This document shows, in pieces, positions 12,129-23,398 of a stretch of 42,061 nt of DNA. Position 1 is the stretch's first letter. Each line of letters begins with the position of its first letter. Under the pieces are notes generated by a model. It worked only from the letters and a program-made list of their open reading frames with translations. It was not told the origin of the DNA and did not search any database. A program made the translations under genes and the position numbers. Source of the stretch: Flavobacteriaceae bacterium (GTDB lineage: Bacteria; Bacteroidota; Bacteroidia; Flavobacteriales; Flavobacteriaceae); contig JAFMLQ010000019.1 in assembly GCA_017852075.1 (NCBI GenBank), positions 1 to 42,061 on the forward strand, written 5' to 3'.

Positions 12129-12202
12129 AACTTGTTCTTTGATATAAAATTATAAAAAGATCATTTCTTGTTTACAAAGTGTTTACTTCTTTATTTATTT
12201 TT

Positions 12203-12213
12203 TGTTGACAACA
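12203..12213. repeat. palindrome TGTTGACAACA
   Basis: An 11-base palindrome with a single central base inside the candidate origin. It could be a protein-binding site. Seen directly; role unknown. Confidence 0.4.
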
Positions 12214-12273
12214 TTTATTAAAAAAGAATTCTTTTAATTTTATTTTTTTACCTAGAAAATGAAATGAAATATC

Positions 12274-12303
12274 AGGTGAAAATCAATCTCTTTTTATTCA
12301 CCT
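12274..12303. repeat. inverted repeat AGGTGAA...TTCACCT
   Basis: Perfect 7-bp arms (12274-12280 and 12297-12303) around a 16-base spacer. The right arm overlaps a near-match DnaA box (TTATTCACC, 12294-12302). It lies within the candidate origin. Confidence 0.45.
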
Positions 12304-12430
12304 TTATCTTCAAAAATAACGTCAGTTTTAAACAATAAATAAATCCCAAAACGAACTTTTTTATTCCAACTCTCTTTTATCAACCGTTTGTTTATAAATG
12401 CTTATTTGGTTGATTTTATGAAAGTAACGT

Positions 12431-12439
12431 TGTGTATAA
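12431..12439 (-). other. DnaA box (TTATACACA)
   Basis: TGTGTATAA on the plus strand is a perfect TTATNCACA match on the minus strand. It lies in the middle of the candidate origin. Confidence 0.55.
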
Positions 12440-12508
12440 CCAATAAAAAGATGTGGAAAGTTTACTGTTTTTTAAAAAAGATTTTATTACTAAATATTTT
12501 TTTCAGCA

Positions 12509-12517
12509 TTATTCACA
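12509..12517 (+). other. DnaA box (TTATTCACA)
   Basis: A perfect TTATNCACA match, followed within 20-55 bases by an almost pure A/T segment that could be the unwinding element. Confidence 0.55.
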
Positions 12518-12608
12518 AGCCATATACATCAACATTATTTTTAAAATTAAATTAAAAAGAATAATAATAATGTTAATGGTGTTAATAACAAACAGAAAAG
12601 CATTATCG

Positions 12609-12616
12609 TACCTTTG
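12609..12616 (+). promoter_or_regulatory. TACCTTTG -7 box before rnr
   Basis: A perfect TAnnTTTG element. It decides the start of rnr: the in-frame GTG at 12619 lies only 2 bases beyond it, so the ATG at 12634 (17 bases beyond) is the start. Confidence 0.6.
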
Positions 12617-12633
12617 TTGTGAAGAACAAATTC

Positions 12634-20227: not shown

Positions 20228-20653
20228 ATCATTTCTTTTCACAACATACCGGAGTTTTTAAAAAATGCAGAACTTGAAAGCGCGTTAATGGATTTCGTTC
20301 GTGAGTATAACTATACCATTGGAAAGCTGTCTTATAACTTTGTTTCCAAAGAAGAGCTGCTGAAAATGAACCAAGAATATTTAAATCACGATACACATAC
20401 AGACATCATTACGTTTGATTATTCATCACAGAAAACGCTGAGTGCAGAAATTTTTATTTCCATGTGGGCTATACGCCAATCTGCTAAAGATGAAAACCAA
20501 ACAACTGAAAATGAGACACTTAGGGTTATTTCACATGGTGTATTACATTGTATGGGGTTAAATGACAAAAACAGAGAAGAAAAAGCGATGATGCGTAAAA
20601 GTGAAAATAGATTCATAGAATTGTTCCACGTGAAACAAAAGAAATATGTTTGA
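20228..20653 (+). CDS. ybeY: endoribonuclease YbeY, apparently non-AUG start
   Basis: A metal-dependent rRNA-processing endoribonuclease. The zinc site reads ISHGVLHCMGLND, with His, His and Asp in place of the third His, as is usual in Bacteroidota. LNHDTHTDIITFDY is the other hallmark. From the first ATG (20288) the product would be 121 residues and lack the first strand and part of helix one. The frame continues upstream as ISFHNIPEFLKNAELESALM, matching the family's usual M-I-x-F start, up to a TAG at 20222-20224. The only codons available are AAT, ATC (20228) and ATT (20231), so ATC or ATT is the likely start, giving about 141 residues, the normal size. The 3' end overlaps mnmG by 8 bases and carries a parS-like site. 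Confidence 0.85.
   Translation: MISFHNIPEFLKNAELESALMDFVREYNYTIGKLSYNFVSKEELLKMNQEYLNHDTHTDIITFDYSSQKTLSAEIFISMWAIRQSAKDENQTTENETLRVISHGVLHCMGLNDKNREEKAMMRKSENRFIELFHVKQKKYV
20622..20637 (+). other. parS: parS-like ParB-binding site, copy 1
   Basis: TGTTCCACGTGAAACA, a perfect match to the widely conserved parS consensus TGTTNCACGTGAAACA. It lies within the last codons of ybeY (LFHVKQ). parS is bound by ParB, which with ParA/Smc segregates newly replicated origins. Confidence 0.85.
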
Positions 20654-22517
20654 TACGCAATATGATGTTATAGTTGTAGGAGCTGGCCATGCAGGCTGTG
20701 AAGCTGCTGCTGCTGCTGCCAACTTGGGTTCAAAAACATTGTTAATTACAATGAATTTACAGAATGTTGCCCAAATGTCTTGTAACCCAGCTATGGGAGG
20801 TATCGCAAAAGGACAAATTGTAAGGGAGATTGACGCCCTAGGGGGATATAGTGGAATTGTTTCCGATCGTAGCGCGATTCAATATAAAATGTTGAACCAA
20901 TCCAAAGGCCCCGCTATGTGGAGCCCAAGAGTACAATCCGACCGCAGCTTATTTTCACTAGAATGGCGCTCTATGCTAGAGCAAACCCAATTCGTTGACT
21001 TTTATCAAGACATGGTTGTTGACTTAATAGTAAAAGAACATCAAGCTGTAGGAGTGGTTACCTCTCTAGGATCTAAAATTTATGGCAAGGCGGTAGTGCT
21101 TACGAATGGAACTTTTCTCAACGGCCTTATTCATATCGGAGAAAAGAATTTTGGAGGAGGACGCGCTGGAGAAAAGGCAGCAACTGGCCTTACCAGCGCC
21201 TTGCAAAAATTAGGGTTTATCGCAGGGAGGATGAAAACAGGCACTCCCCCTCGGGTGGACGGAAGGTCCCTAGATTTCTCTAAGATGACTGAACAACCCG
21301 GAGACGTGAACCCATCCAAATTTTCATTTTCCGATAACACAGAACCCCTTACCAAACAACGAAGTTGTTATATTACCCACACCAATCTTGAAGTACACGA
21401 CATACTGAGGGATGGTTTTGACCGCTCCCCAATGTTTAATGGCGCTATTCAAAGCACAGGGCCACGGTATTGTCCCTCCATTGAGGATAAGATTAATCGT
21501 TTTGCCGACAAATCTCAACACCAAATATTTGTAGAACCTGAAGGATGGAATACAGTGGAAGTGTACGTCAACGGATTCTCTACCTCATTGCCAGACGATA
21601 TACAATACGAAGCACTAAGGCGGGTAAAGGGATTTGAAACGGTAAAGTTTTTCAGACCAGGCTACGCCATTGAATACGATTACTTCCCCCCCACTCAGTT
21701 GTTTCACAGTCTAGAAACAAAACTTATACAAAATCTGTTTTTCGCTGGACAAATCAATGGAACAACAGGATATGAAGAAGCCGGCGCACAGGGAATTATG
21801 GCAGGAATCAATGCCCATCTCAAGCATATGGAGCAAACTCCATTTATTCTAGGAAGAGAAGAAGCCTACATAGGCGTTTTAATAGACGATCTTATTCTAA
21901 AGGGAACAGAGGAGCCTTACCGTATGTTTACCTCGAGAGCAGAATACCGAACCTTGTTACGTCAAGACAATGCAGACGAGCGTCTTACGGCCAGATCACA
22001 TAAGCTAGGCCTAGCATCTGACGATAGATTAAAGAAGGTAGAGGAGAAAACTAAAAAACGCATAAGTTTAGTGAACTACCTTAGAAAAGAAAGCTATCCA
22101 TTAGACGCCACCAATACACTTTTAATTCAGAAGGAAGCAATCCCAGTGACTCAAACTGATAAATACGCGAAACTCCTAGCACGACCAAACATCACCCGAA
22201 AGGATTTTAAGACATTTGAGCTGTTGAACAGCTTTATGTTGGAGAATCAAATGGATGATACCATCTTTGAGCAAGCAGAAATCGAAGTAAAATATGCGGG
22301 CTATATAGAAAAAGAAAAAAGGAATGCCGACAAACTCAAACGTCTTGAAAACATCAACATTCCCAAGAACTTTGATTTCGATGCTCTGGCATCATTATCG
22401 TATGAGGCTAAAGAAAAGCTAAATAAGTTACGACCTGCTACACTAGCACAAGCATCGAGAATTAGTGGCATTAATCCAAGCGACATAAGCGTGCTGTTGG
22501 TATCAATGGGAAGATAA
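20646..22517 (+). CDS. mnmG: tRNA uridine 5-carboxymethylaminomethyl modification enzyme MnmG
   Basis: A 623-residue FAD protein that with MnmE modifies wobble uridine 34 of several tRNAs. The FAD-binding VIVVGAGHAGCEAA is at residues about 9-22, CNPAMGGIAKGQIVREIDALGG at about 47-68 carries the conserved Cys, and GLTSALQKLGFIAGRMKTGTPPRV, the IEYDYFPPTQL segment and AGQINGTTGYEEAGAQG are family signatures. Length is normal. The first 8 bases overlap ybeY. Sites matching parS flank the gene on both sides, and mnmG is a known origin neighbour in other phyla. mnmE is not in the window. Confidence 0.97.
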   Translation: MFDTQYDVIVVGAGHAGCEAAAAAANLGSKTLLITMNLQNVAQMSCNPAMGGIAKGQIVREIDALGGYSGIVSDRSAIQYKMLNQSKGPAMWSPRVQSDRSLFSLEWRSMLEQTQFVDFYQDMVVDLIVKEHQAVGVVTSLGSKIYGKAVVLTNGTFLNGLIHIGEKNFGGGRAGEKAATGLTSALQKLGFIAGRMKTGTPPRVDGRSLDFSKMTEQPGDVNPSKFSFSDNTEPLTKQRSCYITHTNLEVHDILRDGFDRSPMFNGAIQSTGPRYCPSIEDKINRFADKSQHQIFVEPEGWNTVEVYVNGFSTSLPDDIQYEALRRVKGFETVKFFRPGYAIEYDYFPPTQLFHSLETKLIQNLFFAGQINGTTGYEEAGAQGIMAGINAHLKHMEQTPFILGREEAYIGVLIDDLILKGTEEPYRMFTSRAEYRTLLRQDNADERLTARSHKLGLASDDRLKKVEEKTKKRISLVNYLRKESYPLDATNTLLIQKEAIPVTQTDKYAKLLARPNITRKDFKTFELLNSFMLENQMDDTIFEQAEIEVKYAGYIEKEKRNADKLKRLENINIPKNFDFDALASLSYEAKEKLNKLRPATLAQASRISGINPSDISVLLVSMGR

Positions 22518-22522
22518 TATAT

Positions 22523-22538
22523 TGTTTCACGTGGAACA
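22523..22538 (-). other. parS: parS-like ParB-binding site, copy 2
   Basis: TGTTTCACGTGGAACA on plus, the exact reverse complement of copy 1. It occupies most of the 23-base gap between mnmG and the methyltransferase gene, ending 2 bases before the ATG at 22541. Confidence 0.85.
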
Positions 22539-22540
22539 AA

Positions 22541-23398
22541 ATGAACTTTAAAAACAATTTTATCGAAGCGAAAGATCATCTGGTAAGCGGAGAGATCTTT
22601 AAAATAAAATGGGACCCAACAAAAGGGAGGGCCGCTACTCAAGTCAAGCCTTCGCTAGATCTTTCAGCATACTATAACTCGCAGGACTATACTTCTCACA
22701 AAGAGAGCGACTTCTCTTTTATTGAAAAAATTTATGTATTCGTCCAAAACAGGATGTTTCGTTACAAAGCTTCAATTGTAAAGCAAACGACAAGAGACAA
22801 AACTCTATTAGACTTTGGTTCAGGGATTGGTGCTTTTTGTTCATTTATGCAGGAACAAGGATATAACGTTAGTGGCATAGAGCCAATGAATCGCCCACGA
22901 ACGATCGCAAAGGAAAAAGGGCTTAATGTTTTTCAATCTCTAAAAAAGATTCCTAAAACTGTACATTATGACATCATCACTCTTTGGCATGTACTTGAGC
23001 ACCTTCCTAAGCCCGAAAAAACAATAAATAAACTGGCTAAACTTCTACATACAAAGGGAGTGATAATTGTGGCAGTTCCTAACTTAAGTAGCTATGATTC
23101 AGACTTTTATGGCCAAAAATGGGCTGCGTTAGACGTGCCAAGGCACTTATGGCACTTTACCTCAAGAGGGGTATTAAATCTGATGCAATCAGAAGGGTTC
23201 TTTTTAAAAGAAACGCATCCCCTATGGTTTGATGCACTATATATCTCTTATCTCTCGGAAAAACATAGCGGTTCGTATTTCCCTTTTCTTCGAGGGGTAA
23301 TAATAGGGTTACTCTCCAATTTTAAGGCCTTGTTTACAGGAGAGTATTCCTCACTGATTTATGTGTTTTCTAAGAGCGAGCCTTATCAGGAAGATTAA
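22541..23398 (+). CDS. class I SAM-dependent methyltransferase
   Basis: A 285-residue protein with a Rossmann-type methyltransferase core. The AdoMet-binding motif is LLDFGSGIGAFCSFM at about 90-104, motif post I reads VSGIEPM, and IITLWHVLEHLPKPE is the characteristic Methyltransf_23 HVLEH segment. The DVPRHLWHFTSRGV motif is also typical of the group. The substrate is unknown. It follows mnmG with a parS site between them, probably in the same transcript, and overlaps the convergent holB gene by 29 bases. Confidence 0.87.
   Translation: MNFKNNFIEAKDHLVSGEIFKIKWDPTKGRAATQVKPSLDLSAYYNSQDYTSHKESDFSFIEKIYVFVQNRMFRYKASIVKQTTRDKTLLDFGSGIGAFCSFMQEQGYNVSGIEPMNRPRTIAKEKGLNVFQSLKKIPKTVHYDIITLWHVLEHLPKPEKTINKLAKLLHTKGVIIVAVPNLSSYDSDFYGQKWAALDVPRHLWHFTSRGVLNLMQSEGFFLKETHPLWFDALYISYLSEKHSGSYFPFLRGVIIGLLSNFKALFTGEYSSLIYVFSKSEPYQED

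Follow-up and report, generated by a model that had tools for sequence, protein, structure and literature searches.

Two 16-bp near-palindromes flank the mnmG gene of a Flavobacteriaceae bacterium within the 42,061-nt stretch of DNA analyzed here as a whole (the window). The question raised by this locus is whether they are the centromeric parS sites of the chromosome and how they are placed relative to the partition genes and the replication origin. The mechanism of the ParABS family, in which ParB forms CTP clamps and ParA acts in segregation, is established. Both sites very probably function as parS, and the reading as chromosomal parS centromeres of a ParABS system, with a mechanism transferred from the family, was assigned a probability of about 0.94. 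By analogy, ParB dimers would recognize either 16-bp site, close into clamps with CTP bound and slide away from it, covering the mnmG region; after replication, ParA would pull apart the ParB-coated origin-proximal DNA.

Sequence, position and uniqueness of the two sites

Positions 20622-20637 hold site 1, TGTTCCACGTGAAACA, on the plus strand; at 22523-22538, TGTTTCACGTGGAACA is its exact reverse complement, and the same 16-mer is read there on the minus strand (site 2). Both are exact matches to the 16-bp parS consensus TGTTNCACGTGNAACA, which was used as reference, and both are imperfect palindromes with one mismatched pair each. The position of site 1 is kept within the genus and site 2 is kept in relatives. 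The first-pass annotation had described exact reverse complements, full consensus matches and near-palindromes, one in the end of ybeY and the other in the gap after mnmG, about 1.9 kb apart; all of these statements agree with the coordinates.

Site 1 encodes the final ybeY codons L-F-H-V-K-Q and ends 8 bp upstream of the mnmG start codon (ATG at 20646). The ybeY gene (rRNA maturation RNase; 20240-20653, plus strand; TIGR00043, 76 bits, over the cut-off) has its stop codon at 20651-20653; the first ATG of the open reading frame is at 20288 and the start codon at 20240 is provisional. Between both sites lies mnmG (gidA; tRNA modification; 20646-22517, plus strand; TIGR00136, 817.8 bits, over the cut-off). 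The gap from its stop codon (22515-22517) to the next ATG (22541) measures 23 bp, 16 of which are site 2, whose end is 2 bp upstream of that ATG. The gene directly downstream (22541-23398, plus strand) is methyltransferase-like (TIGR01983, 45.2 bits, below the cut-off). To the left of mnmG, gltX, glnS, folB, rnr, rpiB and rnpA were found, to the right holB-like and pgk-like genes. None of the 30 window ORFs scanned for families (up to 37.2 kb) was named parA, parB or dnaA.

The draft genome of the window comprises 1,914,576 bases on 79 contigs and is 88.9% complete. The two 16-mers are the sole places with 0 or 1 mismatch in these 1.91 Mb, which makes two copies 1.9 kb apart, clustered and not dispersed over the genome. 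With two mismatches, seven more places were found, while the backwards control pattern gave eight with up to two mismatches. With the window as training sequence, the number of exact matches expected per genome is 0.0078 from the base composition and 0.0061 from a first-order Markov model; for two exact matches no more than 2 kb apart, the expectation is about 6e-8. In a search of 60 genomes allowing no mismatch, the real pattern was matched in 45 genomes and the backwards control had no hit. The proposal of the first-pass annotation that the pair is very unlikely to have arisen by chance is borne out by these values.

Conservation of the sites at mnmG

The genus was represented by the genome of the window and 36 others, of which G002, G009 and G028, whose assemblies lack an mnmG match, were left out. 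Both sites were present with 0 or 1 mismatch in 33 of the 34 genomes with mnmG: both exact in 21, one exact in 10 and both with one mismatch in 2. In the 34th genome (G003) a contig ends inside mnmG and the upstream site alone is visible. Exact pairs on one contig are spaced by 1,897-1,907 bp, about the length of mnmG, and the flanking bases differ among the same-genus genomes where flanks were read. In the window and a subset of the same-genus genomes mnmG was read beside both sites, including G008, in which mnmG is divided between two contigs with one site on each. For most other two-site genomes of the genus it was read beside one site and the second was assigned by the spacing of 1,897-1,907 bp; G016 was counted by spacing alone. 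G026 has its two exact sites on two contigs, with mnmG read beside one of them and the second counted by its exact sequence alone.

The presence of the sites at mnmG in other flavobacteria, suggested for checking by the first-pass annotation, was observed in the genus, in other families of the order and in named records. In other families of the order (G037-G059), a site within about 300 bp of mnmG was found in 20 of 23 genomes with up to one mismatch and in 22 of 23 with up to two. The exception, G051 (0.3 Mb), has neither a site nor a parB match. The survey of named records covered the best 80 of 588 confirmed mnmG loci, including one record titled Limnohabitans; since these are the best-scoring loci, near relatives are over-represented. 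Among these 80 loci, a site with up to one mismatch occurs within 300 bp of mnmG upstream in 64, downstream in 48, on both sides in 46 and on either side in 66. The remaining 14 comprise 8 with a nearby two-mismatch site and 6 with none within 300 bp. Counted over the same best 80 of 588 loci, 136 sites with up to one mismatch lie in 47,550 bp by mnmG, compared to 33 in 1,535,586 bp elsewhere, 9 of the latter in one Flavobacterium array extending further upstream; the backwards control gave none in either part. In the 159 sites with up to two mismatches, 75 of 94 mismatches affect positions 1 and 16, the outermost ones. In some relatives, sites are found on one side of mnmG only.

Some records showed further parS-like sequences near mnmG. 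In Flavobacterium sp. MC2016-06 (L152, upstream of 10001), the 1.2 kb preceding mnmG contain 12 parS-like sites with up to two mismatches; six of them are 116-118 bp apart, and five of these six carry ACATG in place of ACGTG. The parS-like word TCTTCCACGTGAAACA is common to four flavobacteria (L144, L155, L158 and L163) at 5.1-5.6 kb past mnmG, which may be a coding coincidence or a third site.

Among nine genomes chosen for a weak or missing mnmG site, parB was found in eight. With parB present, G066 and G067 have no site genome-wide at up to one mismatch and G065 has one, equal to its control count; each of the three has at least one two-mismatch site at mnmG. Five genomes lacking an mnmG site at up to two mismatches (those of L203, L204, L211, L215 and L221) were searched as a whole. 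In four of the five, two to three parS-like sites with 0 or 1 mismatch are located at the 3' end of thrC, encoding threonine synthase (L291, L292, L293 and L294, around position 1500). In these four genomes the centromere seems to have moved to another gene. The ORFs beside the exact site of the fifth genome (L203) matched no family.

Partition proteins, replication origin and condensin

The genome of the window contains a single parB match, in a parA-parB operon on contig C44, and a single dnaA match, on contig C63. This agrees with the earlier statement that parAB is missing from the window, and a missing parB gene, named in advance as a finding that would speak against parS, was not encountered. 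ParB matched TIGR00180 with 173.8 bits and stayed below the cut-off of 315 for the Noc model TIGR04285 (231.5 bits). The ParA candidate adjoining it is a 254-aa ORF that overlaps the parB start and matched ParA-superfamily models below their cut-offs. ParB itself contains the motif GERRLRA, which we take to be its CTP-binding motif.

This ParB (L010) aligns with solved ParB structures over the N-terminal and HTH domains. It keeps Q162, G170, K171, R173, N178, G201 and R204 in the numbering of the Caulobacter co-crystal, and both R173 and G201 equivalents, which belong to the recognition residues, are among the residues kept. Position 172 is K (S in Caulobacter), and positions 179 (Y) and 184 (K) both differ from Caulobacter. 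The roles of the parS-reading residues were taken from the relevant passages of the ParB-parS co-crystal study, according to which positions 179 and 184 vary among ParBs (PMC7383237). In a comparison of 15 ParBs of the order, all have R173 and N178, and 14 (all but that of G047) keep G170 and G201; the GERR pattern is found in 14, the exception being L071. A second, weak hit in G001 (L074) yielded no alignment and is not among the 15. The first search for parB was positive in 15 of 16 genomes; both sites are present in the miss, the G010 assembly of 100 contigs (88% complete). In G047 (L073, L232), a ParB with S170 and A201 coincides with the edge-variant parS-like sites AGTTTCACGTGAAACT, which have two mismatches. 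This single case is suggestive of a possible co-change of protein and site.

Three relatives assembled as a single contig (G038, G049 and G053) and one long contig (G010) were sampled for GC skew. In G038 (3.07 Mb) both the coarse and the dense sample place the skew minimum about 20 kb away from the sites. For G049 (2.84 Mb) the dense sample places the minimum at 768 kb, at a distance of about 20 kb; the coarse sample alone would place it at 800-900 kb, 50-150 kb from the sites. On the 1.06-Mb contig of G010, which belongs to the same genus, the minimum is about 35 kb away. G053 (4.38 Mb) is ambiguous, with a broad coarse minimum about 240 kb off and a nearly flat curve around the sites. The origin-proximal location proposed at first is thus supported by a skew minimum 20-35 kb from the locus in three of the four relatives. 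For the genome of the window itself, the skew was profiled over the 42-kb window and is lowest at 18-20 kb (2-kb bins).

The partition and initiator genes are located elsewhere. The positions of parS, parB and dnaA are 1436, 256 and 280 kb in G038, 749, 2797 and 2155 kb in G049, and 2764, 1471 and 4188 kb in G053. A parB far from parS is therefore not peculiar to the genome of the window and is also observed in all three single-contig relatives. An oriC at mnmG has been predicted in Flavobacteriaceae by Ori-Finder and skew in passages of two taxonomic papers (PMC11278836, PMC12843772), the first of which has one figure legend with swapped labels.

A scan for DnaA boxes (TTATCCACA, up to one mismatch) in the window, G038, G049 and G053 revealed no shared cluster. 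Five boxes lie within about 430 bp in G053, about 2.7 kb past the second site, and four within about 400 bp in G049, about 36 kb from the sites; in the window and in G038, no 500-bp stretch holds more than two. The AT-rich gap between the divergent rpiB and rnr genes (12129-12618; 490 bp, GC 0.216) is a candidate oriC or a long promoter region. A gap of 500-509 bp with a GC of 0.15-0.20 is present in all five other same-genus genomes for which both genes were fetched, and the gap of the window contains no DnaA-box cluster. It stays unproven as oriC because the skew minimum of G010 is about 26 kb from its copy.

Smc-ScpAB is the usual second client of parS-bound ParB, and its loading is a common but not a defining role of parS. 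Full Smc gave no match over the cut-off in any of five genomes (G000, G001, G038, G049 and G053), and no ScpA match was found in any of the 12 Flavobacteriales-type genomes searched (G000, G001, G037, G038, G040, G043, G046, G047, G049, G053, G055 and G068), nine of which are at least 90% complete, with 89% for the draft of the window. Some ScpA misses are possible since the search detected ScpA in 9 of 14 control genomes. Algoriphagus and Chitinophaga yielded ScpA and, in addition, an open frame of about 1180 aa that matches SMC_N. The five SMC_N hits that were classified (two in G000 and one each in G001, G040 and G043) are RecN or RecF, those assigned to RecN being partial translations below the curated cut-off; in the window's own genome, one hit is RecN and the other RecF. 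For the remaining SMC_N hits of the 12 genomes, the length of the open frame (at most 697 aa) was the sole criterion. A search for MksB/MukB (PF13555) gave weak matches in the Flavobacteriales-type genomes, with 1e-7 as the best among the matches listed, and a strong match in Chitinophaga G070 (1.2e-21, open frame of 1128 aa). A distant condensin in the Flavobacteriales-type genomes is possible. Neither Smc nor ScpA, which would accompany parS as an Smc-ScpAB loading site, was found in these searches, and with no Smc over the cut-off in five of five and no ScpA in 12 of 12 genomes, loading of Smc-ScpAB at the Flavobacteriales parS appears doubtful.

In the passages considered of a Hi-C study of the OMM12 community, ParABS is described in all 12 genomes, and no known condensin was found in two Bacteroidetes with ParABS, B. 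caecimuris and M. intestinale (PMC10197239). The parS sites were mostly clustered and were used together with GC skew for origin placement, the origin not being systematically at dnaA; in B. caecimuris a secondary diagonal remains, in which the authors see a hint of unidentified SMC complexes (PMC10197239). These passages name neither mnmG nor Flavobacteriales. The missing Smc-ScpAB in the genomes studied here supports this already existing open question. More tentatively, and with well under even odds, the parS pair around mnmG could represent a lineage-specific centromere of the Flavobacteriales that works without Smc-ScpAB, either independently of condensin or with an unknown one, with parAB and dnaA off the origin.

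Alternative readings and comparison with known systems

Because each site ends 2-8 bp upstream of a start codon, the sites could be parS at which bound ParB additionally controls mnmG and the methyltransferase gene. The window sites end 8 and 2 bp before their ATGs, and in the best 80 of 588 loci the nearest upstream site has a median position of 18.5 bp before the mnmG match start (64 loci) and the nearest downstream site of 11 bp past the match end (48 loci). However, the upstream distances in the same best 80 of 588 loci range between 5 and 152 bp, and sites are one-sided in some relatives. Moreover, no regulatory effect of ParA/ParB was detected in E. coli on a cloned gidA promoter region from P. 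aeruginosa (unpublished work cited in a passage of PMC3909081). Such an additional control is considered unlikely. Near-palindromes at the 5' ends of genes would also fit operators for another transcription factor that shares the parS sequence, a very unlikely explanation given the perfect parS match in just two copies in the genome of the window and the gathering of mismatches at positions 1 and 16 (75 of 94). Furthermore, G051, the sole complete genome found without parB, is also without the site, whereas the genomes of L204, L211, L215 and L221, which have parB and no mnmG site, carry clustered parS-like sites elsewhere.

Transcription terminators or intergenic RNA hairpins are an extremely improbable reading of the sites: site 2 folds as a 7-pair hairpin of -5.1 kcal/mol, but it reaches a z-score of -1.45 only, site 1 lacks such a structure (z-score +0.75) and neither site is among the hits of the terminator scan. 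For non-functional remnants or chance matches no supporting point was found, and their probability is close to negligible. Only 0.006-0.008 exact matches are expected per genome, and the sites are kept at no more than one mismatch in 33 of the 34 same-genus genomes, the flanking bases differing where read; this conservation argues against chance matches. The reading of both sites as parS centromeres is therefore preferred.

The element is of a known kind; what is added here is that parS is arranged around mnmG across the group, also in genomes that yielded no Smc-ScpAB. No description of parS at mnmG in flavobacteria was found in the literature searched, which comprised few subscription papers and excerpts rather than complete texts. 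In flavobacteria and many of their relatives, dnaA is a misleading guide to the origin region; here the mnmG-parS locus provides a marker at the sequence level and would aid assembly orientation and replication-rate estimates from metagenomes. It is also a natural test of the role of parS-bound ParB where Smc-ScpAB seems absent.

The oriC predictions for Mariniflexile and Algorimicrobium are similar in that mnmG as origin marker agrees with the GC skew, and in Mariniflexile dnaA is out of line with the skew; the passages concerned are confined to predicting the origin, without mention of parS (PMC11278836, PMC12843772). Noc and its binding site NBS are alike in combining a ParB-like protein with a 16-bp palindrome. 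In contrast to Noc, which has Q173 and R201 and prefers NBS according to the part of the study consulted (PMC7383237), L010 ParB has R173 and G201. The chromosomal ParABS systems of Bacillus (Spo0J), Caulobacter (ParB) and Pseudomonas share with the present locus the 16-bp site in few, clustered copies near the origin, as well as ParA and ParB encoded together. The parAB genes of P. aeruginosa are located about 7 kb from oriC according to the passage cited (PMC3909081), whereas in the three single-contig relatives a long distance separates parS from parB and dnaA.
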